Assembly (NCBI RefSeq): GCF_009720385.1
Contig: NZ_ML769306.1
Coordinates: forward strand, 187,005 to 251,004
Length of the DNA: 64,000 nt
Source: Catellatospora vulcania
Lineage (GTDB): Bacteria > Actinomycetota > Actinomycetes > Mycobacteriales > Micromonosporaceae
Direction of reading: 5' to 3'
Shown here: positions 9,215-15,658 of the stretch, one piece after another
Position numbering within the stretch: position 1 is the stretch's first letter
Layout: every line of letters begins with the position of its first letter
Notes under the pieces: model-generated
Database searches by the model: none
Seen by the model: the letters and a program-made list of their open reading frames with translations, nothing else
What the model was told of the DNA's origin: nothing
Made by a program: the position numbers and the translations under genes

Positions 9215-10327
9215 ATGGGACTGCAGGCACCGCTGTGGCGGGCCGTCACCGTGTTCCGGGTGGCCGCGCTCGTGTACGCCACCGTCCTGATGCTGGCCGG
9301 CTTCCGTGACTTCACCCGGCCCTGGCTGGGCTGGGCGGTCCTCGCGGCGATGGTGGCCTGGACCGCTGTCACCGGCGTGCGCTACCACGACCCCGCGGGC
9401 CGCAGCCGGGCCTGGCTGGCCGCCGACCTGGCCGTCACCCTCACCTGCCTGCTCGCGTCCATGGTGGTGGTGCCCGCCGAGCGGCTGGCCTCGGGCGGCC
9501 CGACCCTGCCGATGGCCTGGGTGGCCGGAGCCGTCCTGGTCTGGGCGTTGCGCGGCGGGCGGCGGGCGGGCGGGATCGCCGCGCTGATCGTCGGCGCGGC
9601 CGACCTGTTCCTGCGCGGCGAGATCACCTCCGCCACCGTCAACGGCACGGTGCTGCTGCTGCTCGCGGGCGGGGTCATGGGATACGTGTCCCGGCTGACC
9701 GACGTGGCGGAGACCCGGATGCAGCGCGCCGCCGAACTGGACGCCGCGACCCGGGAACGCGAGCGCCTGGCCCGCGGTATCCACGACTCCGTGCTGCAGG
9801 TGCTCGCACTCGTCCAGCGCCGCGGCACGGAGCTGGGCGGCGAGGCCGCGGAGCTGGGCCGGCTGGCGGGCGAGCAGGAGGCGGTGCTGCGCTCGCTGGT
9901 GGGGGTGCACGACACGGCGGCAGCCGCGGGCAGCGCCGACCTGCGGGTGCTACTGGGGAGGTTCGGCTCGCCGCGGGTCACCGTCGCCACGCCCGCCACG
10001 CCGGTGGTGCTGCCGGCCGGGGTCGCCGCCGAGGTGGCCGCGGCGGCCGGCAGCGCGCTGGACAACGTGGCCGCCCACTGCGGTCCCGCGGCGCGGGCCT
10101 GGGTGCTGGTCGAGCAGGAGCCGGACGCGGTCACCGTGTCGATCCGGGACGACGGGCCGGGCATCGTGCCGGGCCGGCTCGCCGAGGCGGCGGCGTCGGG
10201 CCGGCTCGGGGTGGCGCAGTCGATCCAGGGCCGCATCCGCGACCTCGGCGGGGTCGTCTCCATCGTCAGCGGGCCCGGCCAGGGCACCGAGGTGGAGCTG
10301 CGGGTGCCGCTGCCCGGGTTAGGCTGA
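9215..10327 (+). CDS. MacS-family sensor histidine kinase
   Basis: 370 residues. The N-terminal half has five to six membrane helices (roughly 12-160) and no extracellular sensor domain. The dimerisation/phosphoacceptor helix carries RERLARGIHDSVLQVLALVQ, the NarL-type HisKA_3 H-box with the phospho-histidine in GIHDS. The ATPase domain shows the N-box SALDNVAAHCG and the G1 box DDGPGI. GLGVAQSIQGRI and the closing GQGTEVELRVPL complete it. The ATG at 9215 has AGAAGGAA upstream. Its response regulator follows after 5 bases. MacS kinases of Streptomyces are linked to morphology; the signal here is unknown. Confidence 0.88.
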   Translation: MGLQAPLWRAVTVFRVAALVYATVLMLAGFRDFTRPWLGWAVLAAMVAWTAVTGVRYHDPAGRSRAWLAADLAVTLTCLLASMVVVPAERLASGGPTLPMAWVAGAVLVWALRGGRRAGGIAALIVGAADLFLRGEITSATVNGTVLLLLAGGVMGYVSRLTDVAETRMQRAAELDAATRERERLARGIHDSVLQVLALVQRRGTELGGEAAELGRLAGEQEAVLRSLVGVHDTAAAAGSADLRVLLGRFGSPRVTVATPATPVVLPAGVAAEVAAAAGSALDNVAAHCGPAARAWVLVEQEPDAVTVSIRDDGPGIVPGRLAEAAASGRLGVAQSIQGRIRDLGGVVSIVSGPGQGTEVELRVPLPGLG

Positions 10328-10332
10328 CGCGC

Positions 10333-10974
10333 GTGGTGGACGTGATGGTGGTCGACGACCATCCGATGTGGCGCGACGGTGTGGCGCGTGATCTCACCGA
10401 CGCCGGGTACACGGTGGTCGCGGCGGTCGGCGAAGGCGCGCAGGCGGTGCGGATCGGCCCGTCGGTGCGCCCCGACGTCGTGGTGCTCGACCTGCAGCTG
10501 CCGGACCTGTCCGGGGTGGAGGTCATCCGCGGCCTGGTCGCGGCGGTGCCGCAGGTGCGGGTGCTGGTGCTGTCGGCCAGTGGCGAGCAGCAGGACGTGC
10601 TCGACGCGGTCAAGGCCGGGGCGGCGGGCTATCTGCTGAAGTCGGCTGCGCGGGAGGAGTTCCTGGACGCGGTGCGGCGCACCGCGGAGGGCGATGCCGT
10701 GTTCACGGCCGGGCTCGCGGGCCTGGTGCTGGGCGAGTACCGCCGACTGGCGGCCGCGCCCGGCGACGGACCGGACGCCCCGCGGCTCAGCGAGCGGGAG
10801 ACCGAGGTGCTGCGGCTGGTCGCCAAGGGGCTCACCTACCGGCAGATCGCCGAGCGGCTCACGCTGTCGCACCGGACGGTGCAGAACCATGTGCAGAACA
10901 CGCTGGGCAAGTTGCAGTTGCACAACCGGGTGGAACTGGTGCGCTACGCGATCGAGCAGGGCCTGGACGACTGA
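10333..10974 (+). CDS. NarL/LuxR-type response regulator
   Basis: 213 residues. The receiver domain begins VVDVMVVDDHPMWRDG with the paired acidic residues; the phospho-acceptor aspartate is in VVLDLQLPDLSG, and the conserved lysine in GYLLKSA. The C-terminal HTH domain (about 155-213) reads LSERETEVLRLVAKGLTYRQ and then RTVQNHVQNTLGKL, the LuxR/GerE signature. GTG 10333 is the start. It is paired with the MacS-type kinase and lies 70 bases before the ketosynthase fusion gene, whose expression it may control. Confidence 0.9.
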   Translation: MVDVMVVDDHPMWRDGVARDLTDAGYTVVAAVGEGAQAVRIGPSVRPDVVVLDLQLPDLSGVEVIRGLVAAVPQVRVLVLSASGEQQDVLDAVKAGAAGYLLKSAAREEFLDAVRRTAEGDAVFTAGLAGLVLGEYRRLAAAPGDGPDAPRLSERETEVLRLVAKGLTYRQIAERLTLSHRTVQNHVQNTLGKLQLHNRVELVRYAIEQGLDD

Positions 10975-11044
10975 GTACGGCGCACATCCTGGTTGAGCGC
11001 CTGAGCGGATGCGCCCACGCCCGTCGGCTGGCTGAATCGGGGGT

Positions 11045-12937
11045 ATGACTGCTTTCCCGAACGTGTACCTGACCGGGTTCGGCGCGTACCTGCCCGGCGA
11101 GCCCCTGGACGCCGAGCAGATCGCCCAGCGGCTGGGCGCGGGGGCGCGCGGAGCCGGCCTGCGGGCCCGGGTGCTGGCCGCCAACGGCATCCGGACCCGG
11201 CACTACGCGCTCGACGAGCACGGCTCGGTCACCATGCTGAACGAGGAGCTGGCCGCCGCGGCCGTGCAGGAGGCGCTGAAGGACCGGGACCTGCCGCTGG
11301 AGTCGGTCGGCATGTTGGCCGCCGGGACCACCCAGGGCGACCTGCTGGTGCCGGGCTTCGGGTCGATGGTGCACGGCCGGCTGGGCGGCCCGCCGATGGA
11401 GGTGCTGTCCGCGGGCGGGGTGTGCGCGTCGAGCATGGCGGCGCTTTCGGCCGCGGCGCGGGCGGTGCGGCTCGGCGAGCACGAGGCCGCCGTGGTCGTC
11501 GGGTCGGAGCTGGTCAGCCGCTCGCTGCGGCAGAGCCGGTACGAAGGTGACCGGGTGAGCTTCGATGCGGAGTTCCTGCGCTGGACGCTGTCGGACGGGG
11601 CGGGGGCGGTCGTGCTGGAGCCGCGACCGCGCCCGGACGGGCTGAGTCTGCGCGTGGACTGGACGCACCTGGTGTCGTACGCCGGGGAGCGGCCGGTGTG
11701 CATGTCGGCCGGTGGCGAACCGGTCGCCGGGAAGACGTGGCTGGACGGGCCCGATGTGGCCGGTGCGGAGCGGGCCGGGCTGGTGCGGCTACGGCAGGAC
11801 GTGAAGTCGCTGCCCGCGCTGTTCCGGCTGGGCCTGCGCGAGTACATGGGGCTGGTGCGGGCGGGCCGGTTCACGCCCGACGGCATCGACCACGTGCTGT
11901 GCCACTACAGCGCCGAGCATTTCCGGGGTGAGATCTTCGGGCTGCTCCGCGAGGCGGATCTGATGATCGACGAGGAACGCTGGTTCACGAACCTGCACAC
12001 GCGCGGCAATACCGGCGCGGCCAGCATCTTCGTGATGCTGGAGGAGGCGGCGCGGTCGGGCCGGTTCAGCCCCGGCGAGCGCATCCTGCTCATCGTGCCG
12101 GAATCCGGACGCTACTCGCTCGCGTTCGCGCAGCTCACCTGTGTCGCCGCCGGTGACACCGACGAGACTGCCCCGGCGCCGCGCCCGGTGCGGGCGGCTC
12201 CGGCGGTCCCGGCCGCGTTGCAGCCCACCGCGGTCGCCGCGACGCCGTCGCCGCTGGTGGCGCACGAAGGTGACGGGGAGCTGGTGCGCTGGACGGTGCT
12301 GGAGCTGGCCCGGGTGTGGGAGGACTTCGAGCGGCAGGTGCGGTCCACGCCGCTGGTGCGCCGGATCGACACCGGCACGGCGACCCTCGACGACTACCGG
12401 CGGCTGCTGGTGCACCTGCGCCAGCAGGTCGTGGAGGGCGGGCGCTGGATCAGCCGGGCCGCGTCGAACTTCTCCGTCGAGATGTTCGCGCTGCGCAGCG
12501 CGGCGATCAAGCACGCGGCCGAGGAGCACCGCGACTACCAGCTGCTCGAACGCGACTTCTGCGCGGTCGGCGGCACCCTGGCCGAGATCCGGGGGGCGCG
12601 CAAGAACATCGGGTCGGAGGCGCTGTCGGCGTACGTGTTCCACCAGGCGAGCCAGCCGGATCCGGTGGACCTGTTGGGGGCGATGTTCGTCATCGAAGGG
12701 CTGGGCGCGGGCCTGGTGCTGGGCTGGGCGCGGGCGCTGCGCGAGCAGCTGGACCTGCGCGAGGACCAGGTGAGTTTCCTGGGTTATCACGGGGACGCCG
12801 ACGACGCGCACTTCGCGGAGCTGGCGCACCTGCTGCGGGAGGCGGTGCCGGACCGGGCGGCCGCGGCCCGGGTGGTGCGCACGGCCGAGGTCGTCGCACG
12901 GCTGTACGCGATGCAGCTGACGGAGGTGGATGCGTGA
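11045..12937 (+). CDS. StlD/DarB-like ketosynthase fused to a haem-oxygenase-like domain
   Basis: 630 residues, about 250 more than a normal KAS III-fold ketosynthase. Residues 1-370 form the thiolase fold with the full catalytic triad: C127 in GGVCASSM, H287 in LCHYSAEHF and N322 in GNTGAAS. GTTQGD (94-99) and overall layout resemble StlD/DarB enzymes, which join two acyl thioesters into cyclohexanedione/resorcinol precursors. An Ala/Pro-rich linker (371-405) leads to an all-helical domain (410-628) with HAAEEHRD (490-497), FVIEGLGAG (548-556) and YHGDADDAHF (581-590), the pattern of haem-oxygenase-like di-iron proteins. The stop overlaps the next gene by GTGA. The product is unknown. Confidence 0.82.
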   Translation: MTAFPNVYLTGFGAYLPGEPLDAEQIAQRLGAGARGAGLRARVLAANGIRTRHYALDEHGSVTMLNEELAAAAVQEALKDRDLPLESVGMLAAGTTQGDLLVPGFGSMVHGRLGGPPMEVLSAGGVCASSMAALSAAARAVRLGEHEAAVVVGSELVSRSLRQSRYEGDRVSFDAEFLRWTLSDGAGAVVLEPRPRPDGLSLRVDWTHLVSYAGERPVCMSAGGEPVAGKTWLDGPDVAGAERAGLVRLRQDVKSLPALFRLGLREYMGLVRAGRFTPDGIDHVLCHYSAEHFRGEIFGLLREADLMIDEERWFTNLHTRGNTGAASIFVMLEEAARSGRFSPGERILLIVPESGRYSLAFAQLTCVAAGDTDETAPAPRPVRAAPAVPAALQPTAVAATPSPLVAHEGDGELVRWTVLELARVWEDFERQVRSTPLVRRIDTGTATLDDYRRLLVHLRQQVVEGGRWISRAASNFSVEMFALRSAAIKHAAEEHRDYQLLERDFCAVGGTLAEIRGARKNIGSEALSAYVFHQASQPDPVDLLGAMFVIEGLGAGLVLGWARALREQLDLREDQVSFLGYHGDADDAHFAELAHLLREAVPDRAAAARVVRTAEVVARLYAMQLTEVDA

Positions 12938-13785
12938 AGGGCCCGACCGTGTGGACGGCGATCATGGCCGATCCGACCGTGCCGATCGACCGCGACGTGC
13001 TGCGGATGGTGGTGGCCGACCAGCGGCAGTGGACCCGCCGCTGGCTCTATCCGCCGGCGCGGATCGTGTCGCGGGTCGCGGTGTGGCTGATCCGGGTGGT
13101 CAAGGTGCTGCTGCCGTGGACGTTCTCGGCGCATACGGCGATGGACCGGCTGTGCGTGTGGTTCCTGCGCCGGTTCGTCTCACCGCGGGCCGGTGAGCTG
13201 CTGATCCGGCACTTCCTCATCGAGACGGACCTGCTGGCGTTCATCGCCCGCAACAGCGGCGTGGCCGGGGTGACCGAGCCGGTGCTGCGCCCCACCACGC
13301 TCGCCGGGCTCGGGGACCGGGCGGTGATCGAGCACGACGTCAATGTGTACGACGTGCTCATCGCGCTGGGCGCGGGACGCCGCGGGCCGCGCGGGCCGCT
13401 GGACTTCTCGATGCTGGCGCTGCCGCCAGTCGACGCCTCACCAGGCCTGCGGCGGCTGCTGCGGTTGGACATCCAGACCGCGCTGTGCCTGATGAACATC
13501 CCGTTCGCGCTGTGCCTGACCCCGGAGGAGTACCGGCGCGCGGTGCACTCGATGCGGCTCGACGAGTCGCTGATGACGGTGCTCGCGGAGCTGACCGGCG
13601 ACGACACGTTCCTGCGCTGGCGGCCGGGCGGGGTGGTGGTGCGGGTGGACAGCGGCCTGGATGTGCCGCGCGCGGTGTACGAGCACGCGGTGATCCACGA
13701 GTACGCCCACGCCCGGCTCGTCGCCCTTGCGGCGGGCCAGGCGGACGCCGACCGGCGGCACGTGGCGGCGGCCGCGGCACGGTGA
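12934..13785 (+). CDS. Unknown protein with membrane segment and HExxH motif, partner of the ketosynthase fusion
   Basis: 283 residues, translated from a GTG that overlaps the ketosynthase stop (GTGA), so the two proteins are probably made together. A hydrophobic segment at about 43-64 suggests membrane attachment. Histidine- and acid-rich clusters stand out: IRHFLIETD (91-99), VIEHDVNVYD (131-140) and YEHAVIHEYAHARL (249-262). The last contains HEYAH (255-259), an HExxH pattern that could bind zinc or iron. I do not recognise the family. Alternatives are a metallopeptidase-like protein or a metal-dependent membrane enzyme acting on the ketosynthase product. Confidence 0.75.
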   Translation: MKGPTVWTAIMADPTVPIDRDVLRMVVADQRQWTRRWLYPPARIVSRVAVWLIRVVKVLLPWTFSAHTAMDRLCVWFLRRFVSPRAGELLIRHFLIETDLLAFIARNSGVAGVTEPVLRPTTLAGLGDRAVIEHDVNVYDVLIALGAGRRGPRGPLDFSMLALPPVDASPGLRRLLRLDIQTALCLMNIPFALCLTPEEYRRAVHSMRLDESLMTVLAELTGDDTFLRWRPGGVVVRVDSGLDVPRAVYEHAVIHEYAHARLVALAAGQADADRRHVAAAAAR

Positions 13786-13835: not shown

Positions 13836-15008
13836 TCAGCCGGCCGCGGTGTACTCGGGCAGCGCCTGGACGCCTCTGGCCGGCGTGAGCCGCTGCACTG
13901 CCCCGATCGCCCGCAGCAGCGGCGCGGCGACGGCGTCGCGGACCCACCTGCCGCCTGCGGTCCTGGGCACCATGAGCCGGACGTTGGGTCCGATCTGTTG
14001 CTTCCTGCGCACCAGGTCGCGGTGGCTGTCCTGGTAGCGCGCGAAGGCGAGCCGGTGGTCCCCGCCGGCCGCGGCGAGCTCCCCGGCCAGCCGGTACGCC
14101 CCGACCAGCGCCAGTTCAGCGCCCGCGCCCGAGGCCGGCGAGGCGCACCAGGCGGCGTCGCCGACCAGCGCCACCCGTCCGGTGGACCAGGAGTCCATCT
14201 GCACCTGGCTCAGCGCGTCGAAGTAGAAGTCCGGATCGGCCAGCGCGGCGGCGAGCAGGTCCCTGATCCGCCACGACGTCTCGCCGGCGAACGCGTCGCG
14301 CACCAGGCGCTTGTGCTGGTCGACGTCGCGGTGGTCGTAGGTCAGCACGCCGGAGCGGAAGATGAAGTACGCCTTGGCCTGGGCGTGGTTTCCGGAGCGG
14401 TAGATCCCGGCCATCTTGCCGGGCAGGTTGTACATGGTCACCCAGCGGTCCTCGCCCAGTGCCGCGTCGGCGTCGGCGAACGCGAAGTAGTGGTCCTTGT
14501 GCCTGAGGAACTGCGACGGCGGACCGAACGCCAGCCGGCGGACCGTCGAGTGCATGCCGTCGGCGCCGACGACGAGGTCGAACCGGCGGGTGTCCATGCG
14601 GTCGAAGGAGACCGTGACGCCGTCGGCGTCCTGCTCCAGGTGGCGGATGGAGTCGTCGAAGACGTATTCGACGTTTGCTTCGGTGGCCCCGTGGAGCAGC
14701 GCCACCAGGTCGCCGCGCATGATCTCGATCGCGCCGGGGTCGTTGATGTCGAGGCGCGCGACGCTCCGGTCGGCGGCGTCGACGAACTTCATGCCCTGTA
14801 CGTCGGTGGCTGCCGCGCGGAGCTGCGGCATGATCCCCATTCGTGCTGTCACGTCGAGGGCCTGGCCGCGCACGTCGACGCCGTTGCCGCCGGGACGCAG
14901 CCGCGGTGCGCGCTCGATCACCGTCGGGCGCAGGCCGTACCGGGCCAGCCAGTGCGCGAGCGTCAGCCCGGCGATGCTCCCGCCCGAGATCAGGATCTGC
15001 TCGTTCAT
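13836..15008 (-). CDS. FAD-dependent aromatic-ring-type monooxygenase
   Basis: 390 residues of the PHBH-fold flavin monooxygenases. The FAD-binding dinucleotide motif is ISGGSIAGLTLAHWLARYG (7-25; GGSIAG replaces the usual GxGxxG), the second is VVGADGMHSTVRR, and the ribityl-binding motif is GRVALVGDAAWCASP. These enzymes hydroxylate aromatic or polyketide substrates with NAD(P)H and oxygen; the TetX-like subgroup inactivates tetracyclines, a possibility not tested here. The start is preceded by AGGGAG. It is divergent from a TetR regulator across a dyad-containing region, which suggests substrate-induced expression. Confidence 0.88.
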   Translation of the reverse strand: MNEQILISGGSIAGLTLAHWLARYGLRPTVIERAPRLRPGGNGVDVRGQALDVTARMGIMPQLRAAATDVQGMKFVDAADRSVARLDINDPGAIEIMRGDLVALLHGATEANVEYVFDDSIRHLEQDADGVTVSFDRMDTRRFDLVVGADGMHSTVRRLAFGPPSQFLRHKDHYFAFADADAALGEDRWVTMYNLPGKMAGIYRSGNHAQAKAYFIFRSGVLTYDHRDVDQHKRLVRDAFAGETSWRIRDLLAAALADPDFYFDALSQVQMDSWSTGRVALVGDAAWCASPASGAGAELALVGAYRLAGELAAAGGDHRLAFARYQDSHRDLVRRKQQIGPNVRLMVPRTAGGRWVRDAVAAPLLRAIGAVQRLTPARGVQALPEYTAAG

Positions 15009-15032
15009 CCAGGTCGCTCCCTACGCTACGAT

Positions 15033-15079
15033 AACTGAAATGCACGTTCCAGTTAGAGTATGTGGAAGGGACGTTCCAG
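15033..15079. promoter_or_regulatory. TetR-type operator candidates between divergent genes
   Basis: An imperfect dyad with arms AACTG (15033-15037) and CAGTT (15050-15054) spans 22 bases, and the nonamer ACGTTCCAG occurs twice, at 15044-15052 and 15071-15079. The second copy ends at the base before the TetR ATG (15080), so it would also shut off the regulator. Confidence 0.5.
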
Positions 15080-15658
15080 ATGTCAACGCGAGGCGAGACC
15101 GGACGCCGAGCCGACGCAGTCCGCAACAGGCAACTCGCCCTGCAGGCGGCCACGGCCCTGCTGGCCCAGCCGGGCACCGCGCTCACCGTCGAGGCCATCG
15201 CCACCAAGGCGGGCCTGGGCGCGGCGACCGTGGTGCGCGCCTTCGGCGGCAAGGACGCGCTCCTGGATGCCGCAGTGTCCGGCCTGCTCGAACCGGTGGT
15301 CCGGCGGGCCAGGGCCCTACTGGAGCAGACCGCCGCCGAAGACGCCCTGCGCACCTTCCTCGCCGAGCTGATCGCCTTCCAGTCCGCACACCACGCCATC
15401 AGCGACCAGCTGGGCGACCTCGATCTGCCCGCCACGACCGCCCAGCGGGCAGAACTGGTGCGCAACGTGGAGGAGATGATCACAAGGGCGCGAGCCGACG
15501 GCGCGATCCGCACCGACCTGAGTCCCGCCGTCGTCACCACCCTGATCGGGCAGGCCGCCTATGCGGTCGCGCGGGCGCGACCCGCGTCCCGGGAACTCGC
15601 TGACGCCTGTGTCACCGTCCTCATGGACGGCCTGCGCCCGCAGCGCCGCGTCCGGTGA
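15080..15658 (+). CDS. TetR/AcrR-family transcriptional regulator
   Basis: 192 residues from ATG 15080. The DNA-binding domain reads LALQAATALLAQPGTALTVE and then AIATKAGLGAATVVRAFGGK, a TetR helix-turn-helix in which the recognition helix has TVVRAFG instead of the more usual TLYRHFP. The C-terminal helices (about 75-185) form the ligand pocket. A GTG at 15062 would add six residues but lies inside the operator repeats. Position opposite the FAD monooxygenase gene suggests it represses that gene until a toxic substrate binds. Confidence 0.88.
   Translation: MSTRGETGRRADAVRNRQLALQAATALLAQPGTALTVEAIATKAGLGAATVVRAFGGKDALLDAAVSGLLEPVVRRARALLEQTAAEDALRTFLAELIAFQSAHHAISDQLGDLDLPATTAQRAELVRNVEEMITRARADGAIRTDLSPAVVTTLIGQAAYAVARARPASRELADACVTVLMDGLRPQRRVR

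Follow-up and report, generated by a model that had tools for sequence, protein, structure and literature searches.

A conserved cassette of ketosynthase, haem-oxygenase-like domain and DUF6999 protein with a rearranged oxidase motif and a promoter probably controlled by MacR, in Catellatospora vulcania

The DNA studied here is a 64,000-nucleotide stretch of the Catellatospora vulcania genome (contig NZ_ML769306.1, positions 187,005 to 251,004; the whole stretch is called the window, and its own numbering is used throughout). It carries a gene for a 630-residue protein in which a ketosynthase (KS) domain is fused to a haem-oxygenase-like (HO) domain (11045–12937, forward strand), followed by a gene for a 283-residue protein of the Pfam family DUF6999 (12934–13785, forward strand). 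The initial annotation of this region had suggested a compact pathway that makes and then oxidises a lipid-like product, possibly under control of an adjacent kinase pair. Sequence comparisons uphold that proposal in part: the unit is genuine, its conservation is good and its extent exceeds the earlier description; it is best seen as a putative three-function cassette whose oxidase motif is rearranged and whose promoter is likely to be under MacR. We give about even chances to the fuller reading, in which this small unit of two or three genes makes a small oxidised alkyl-ring lipid and is activated by the two-component system MacRS in most fused lineages. New in the present analysis are a TGAGTA element that tracks the kinase MacS, the departure of the HO domain from its family motif, and the observation that HExxH is not a family feature of DUF6999. 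The coordinates and both protein lengths given earlier were correct, as was the coupling of the two genes, since the GTG start of the DUF6999 gene overlaps the stop codon of the fusion by 4 bp (GTGA).

DUF6999 is the constant partner of KS and HO. The order KS, HO, DUF6999 was found in all 90 distinct loci, with a KS–HO fusion in 43 and KS and HO as separate genes in 47 (46 from Actinomycetota and one on a Pseudoalteromonas plasmid), so the pairing suspected earlier is indeed kept together. These loci derive from a set of 98, comprising the best 80 of 87 confirmed loci, the window, 16 loci from further genomes and the Pseudoalteromonas plasmid, from which 8 same-genome duplicates were dropped; a Streptomyces plasmid locus having a KS without an HO (L037) was excluded. 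Because the window and 14 of the 16 further-genome loci were located via the fusion (the rest via DUF6999, the plasmid via either), these particular loci are not an unbiased test of linkage. Among 61 genomes searched, that of the window included, 15 had the fusion and DUF6999 lay directly downstream in every case; within the genus the fusion was present in 10 of 11 genomes on the same count, the exception being G006. In a sample of 296 genomes of the phylum, with at most four candidates per genome scored for KS and HO, DUF6999 occurred in three, the same three had both KS and HO (E-value at most 1e-20), and a lone KS turned up in a fourth. Nine of 397 genomes of the order carried DUF6999, the loci L121–L128 lying outside those read for gene context. 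This scattered presence, together with the co-occurrence of KS and HO, suggests that the cassette is sporadic but moves as a whole. Moreover, pairwise distances among the three parts correlated with coefficients of 0.92, 0.89 and 0.85; this test and the tree used 30 of the 90 loci with three outside KS, and the inputs for structure prediction held 52 and 43 rows. In the KS tree the unfused actinobacterial group lay inside a clade with the fused Glycomyces and Phytomonospora proteins; splitting may thus have come after fusion in this clade, though long branches leave the root unsure. No conserved fourth gene was seen beside the cassette loci, where a partner like the aromatase DarA was not specifically searched for, and the literature searched gave no description of a KS–HO–DUF6999 cassette. 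As a separate observation, a 185-residue protein encoded just 5′ of the Pseudoalteromonas cassette (L036:11439-11996) has several His motifs, hydrophobic stretches and no Pfam match; relatives of it, in part annotated as diguanylate cyclase, occur in 21 further plasmid records.

The KS domain (residues 1–370; 11045–12154, forward strand) is of the KAS III type, and StlD was its best match both by sequence (39% identity over 360 aligned residues) and by fold, in a search made with residues 3–367. Like StlD and DarB (NF005293, NF053539; PDB 5gk0–5gk2), it has an intact Cys-His-Asn triad, as reported earlier: C127, H287 and N322 align with the Cys, His and Asn of StlD, and none of the three varies among 41 aligned KS sequences. 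The 40 KS-holding rows of a 52-row alignment matched both models. Unlike StlD and DarB, the KS of the cassette is fused to or adjoins an HO domain and is always accompanied by DUF6999. DarB joins a 3-oxoacyl and a 2-enoyl chain into 4-carboxy-2,5-dialkylcyclohexane-1,3-diones (PMC5515871), and co-expressed darB and darA yielded the dialkylresorcinol (PMC3992019). Apart from the cassettes, the excluded Streptomyces plasmid (L037:5703-13122) has a cluster encoding an StlD-like ketosynthase, two acyl carrier proteins, an FAD monooxygenase, an SCP2 protein, a KAS II and a P450, with no annotated HO protein.

The KS domain is joined to the HO domain by the Ala/Pro-rich linker recognised earlier, drawn from its sequence at residues 371–405 (12155–12259, forward strand) in our domain division and at 371–410 when the earlier claim was checked, with pLDDT below 50 at residues 375–395. 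The HO domain itself (residues 406–630; 12260–12934, forward strand) passes PF14518 with 35.1 bits (cut-off 28.9) and is further delimited by alignment column counts and by its helices, the long ones spanning residues 412–433, 448–475, 478–507, 543–569, 577–599 and 604–626 in a model with mean pLDDT 86.4 and pTM 0.63. It shares with the haem-oxygenase-like dimetal oxidases UndA, SznF, CADD and BesC the Pfam domain, a helical bundle, a Glu on the second core helix and HxxxDxxH on the third; unlike those enzymes, it is carried on a ketosynthase and has HxxxEHxD on the first core helix instead of an E...H pair. The printed superfamily motif is E-H-E-H-(D/E)-H, its first pair of residues lying on a single helix, and about 85% of the sequence groups in that analysis had E-H-X-H-D-H or E-H-X-H-E-H (PMC11363339). 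When aligned with four sister HO proteins of gammaproteobacterial plasmids, the ligand set here reads E494-D497-E551-H582-D586-H589, with H490 in addition, an invariant His seven residues before D497 on the first core helix. The first helix has EEHRD against EExGH in the sisters, all four of which have His in place of D497 and Tyr in place of H490, and in the solved relative 3dde both positions are His. No exception was seen for H490, E494, H495, D497, E551, D586 and H589 in 41 rows, nor for H582 in 42, and among the distinct loci HxxxDxxH was kept in 90 of 90 and HxxxEHRD in 89 of 90. The exchange at D497 and H490 relative to the sister proteins, taken with this invariance, indicates that the ligand set departs in a fixed manner, and the domain suggests an oxidase metal site that the printed motif does not cover. 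Thus the H/E/D pattern of di-iron proteins described earlier holds as to the Pfam domain and the conserved His, Glu and Asp residues, but not as to the printed motif, which is broken at D497; the structure prediction gave a helical model of good confidence, and the candidate metal ligands were assigned by residue alignment. Given this departure at the second residue, a dimetal site and an UndA-like action are to be taken as candidates.

In the pathway that we propose, the KS would condense a 3-oxoacyl thioester and a 2-enoyl thioester from fatty-acid metabolism to a 4-carboxy-2,5-dialkylcyclohexane-1,3-dione, as with DarB, and the fusion would hand the free acid straight to the HO domain. The latter may strip hydrogen adjoining the carboxylated carbon and expel CO2 in the manner of UndA, a member of the same superfamily which converts fatty acids to 1-alkenes and CO2 (PMC13108848). 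The product would be a cyclohexenedione, a tautomer of 2,5-dialkylresorcinol, so that HO would stand in for DarA; decarboxylation of the KS product by HO would also explain why an oxidase is fused to a ketosynthase and no further gene is kept. The helical DUF6999 protein would then modify, bind or deliver the lipophilic product, perhaps at the membrane, and phospho-MacR would bind the TGAGTAC element and activate transcription. Oxidation of the KS product by HO in some form is reasonably likely, whereas the exact decarboxylative aromatisation, proposed by analogy with UndA, is a tentative suggestion. More tentative still is the complete picture, in which one fused protein would both assemble a dialkylresorcinol-type lipid and aromatise it through an HO domain with a rearranged metal site, with DUF6999 as the third enzyme and MacRS as the switch in fused lineages. 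If true, the aromatase step that follows ketosynthases of the StlD/DarB type would have a second solution, unrelated to the first.

Several observations speak against this chemistry. The KS of the window scored below the curated cut-offs of both StlD/DarB-type models (NF005293, 330.3 versus 450 bits; NF053539, 281.8 versus 550 bits), a shortfall measured for the window protein, the other rows not having been compared to the cut-offs. The second residue of the printed HO motif is Asp (D497) instead of the first-helix His, the Pseudoalteromonas HO protein gave no PF14518 match, though the same residues are kept in it, and the cassette has neither a reductase nor a ferredoxin. The KS product could instead be linear, formed by an OleA-like head-to-head condensation or as a simple 3-oxoacid, which HO would cleave or desaturate to an alkene, ketone or aldehyde with no ring formed. 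In four of four plasmid regions read (L136–L139, picked from 16 other records), the sister HO gene lies between a gene for an AMP-binding protein and one for a short-chain dehydrogenase/reductase (SDR), an arrangement that fits acyl substrates and so also agrees with the role proposed for HO above; by this adjacency the ringless alternative keeps a rather low probability. The sister HO proteins are annotated as iron-containing redox enzymes, a gene annotated as thermostable hemolysin precedes in two of the four regions, and the AMP-binding/HO/SDR run is possibly a separate lipid pathway without prior description. Somewhat less probable is that HO is not a dimetal oxidase and holds one metal or none, acting as a mononuclear enzyme or as a substrate-holding domain after loss of the first-helix His. 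Its appeal lies in D497, where the four sister proteins have His, and in the same fold harbouring the mononuclear FlcD and the metal-free PqqC (PMC11363339); the invariance of H490, E494, D497, E551, H582, D586 and H589 stands against it and argues for a functional rather than a decayed site.

The DUF6999 protein matched PF22523 nearly over its full length (275.8 bits, cut-off 27), and its predicted structure is helical (pLDDT 88.2, pTM 0.86), and none of the PDB chains compared matched it convincingly. It had been introduced as an unknown HExxH protein with a membrane segment. The HEYAH sequence is present at residues 255–259, but it is no family feature, as HExxH occurs in only 7 of 90 distinct loci and most relatives (41 of 44 rows) have Cys in place of the first His. 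As for the membrane segment, it is borderline: the best 19-residue family-mean hydropathy is 1.57, at residues 38–56, within one long helix of the model (33–59). The name DUF6999 was absent from the literature searched, and this Pfam family of unknown function now gains a strong functional context. Caulobacter vibrioides, used as a control genome, also carries DUF6999.

Upstream of the fusion, on the forward strand, lie genes for a sensor histidine kinase (9215–10327; PF19354 and HATPase_c), which scored 463.9 bits against the MacS equivalog model NF047322 (cut-off 300) and so bears out the MacS-type pair named earlier, and for a NarL-type response regulator (10333–10974; PF00072 and PF00196). 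The top NCBIfam match of the regulator, NarL PRK10651, reached 151.7 bits, below the cut-off of 250, and the tentative name MacR-like comes solely from its pairing with the MacS kinase. A TGAGTAC element (10972–10978, forward strand) is located 73 bp before the ATG of the fusion and overlaps the regulator stop codon; a second TGAG follows 22 bp on, at 10994, and such a second TGAG is often found 22–23 bp after the first box in fused loci. Within 150 bp upstream, 38 of 43 fused loci had TGAGTA, 33 of them in the full form TGAGTAC, compared with a box in 0 of 47 unfused cassettes. Means over 100 dinucleotide shuffles were 0.23 for TGAGTAC and 0.48 for TGAGTA, with a maximum of 3 each, and 34 TGAGTAC sites were observed in the upstream intervals where the rate in the remainder of these loci predicts 0.12. 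Five fused loci had no TGAGTA within 150 bp. In Phytomonospora (L027) a perfect palindrome, TGAGTACCGGTACTCA, lies just beyond this interval, further upstream, which corresponds to the MacR consensus. In L042 and L046 a TGAGTAC lies ∼1.25 kb upstream, and L070 and L087 have no box.

The box also followed the kinase across genomes. MacS was searched in the genomes of 36 of the 80 scanned loci, hand-picked to span genera and hence not random: 14 had MacS, 12 of them with a box within 150 bp and the other two being L042 and L046, and the 22 without MacS had no box (0 of 22), among them two Glycomyces whose cassette is fused, L070 and L087 (one-sided hypergeometric p = 7e-8, strict count, kinship ignored). 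That these two Glycomyces lack both kinase and box is the strongest individual argument for MacR control, and since the box tracks MacS genome-wide, such control is likely even where MacS is unlinked. Some points count against it: kinship among the loci means that box counts are not independent observations; the window box is a half-site with a weak repeat; the palindrome, allowing at most two mismatches, has three sites in the genome and none at the cassette; and a strict direct-repeat pattern had no match. The opposite reading, that box and linkage reflect shared ancestry or that the box serves another regulator, draws on the relatedness of fused lineages and the overlap of the window box with the regulator gene, and is improbable given that a box occurs in 11 of 13 fused loci without linked MacS (27 of 30 with it) and that the two box-less unlinked loci lack MacS altogether. 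The control by the adjacent kinase pair suggested earlier thus gains from the tracking of MacS (12 of 14 versus 0 of 22) and loses from the imperfect site in the window itself, and we consider it probable that MacR controls the cassette. The direct MacRS targets described in Streptomyces coelicolor are membrane proteins and lipoproteins (PMC9739842), whereas the candidate target here is a biosynthetic cassette, by which a lipid pathway would join the likely MacR regulon. Both systems have a kinase that passes the MacS model, and the element here resembles the MacR site.

Some further features were noted around the cassettes. Downstream in the window (13836–15658), an FAD-dependent monooxygenase gene (reverse strand) diverges from a gene for a TetR-type regulator with an SbtR-like C-terminal domain (forward strand), a pair not retained beside the cassette in 17 other loci compared. 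In Glycomyces L042 a gene (L042:6023-7201) separates MacRS from the cassette, with the TGAGTAC box before this gene, and L046 has the same spacing; the product presumably resembles a D-Ala-D-Ala carboxypeptidase. By eye, the start codons of many loci lie a few bases 3′ of −10-like sequences, in the window at 11027–11045, which suggests leaderless transcripts.

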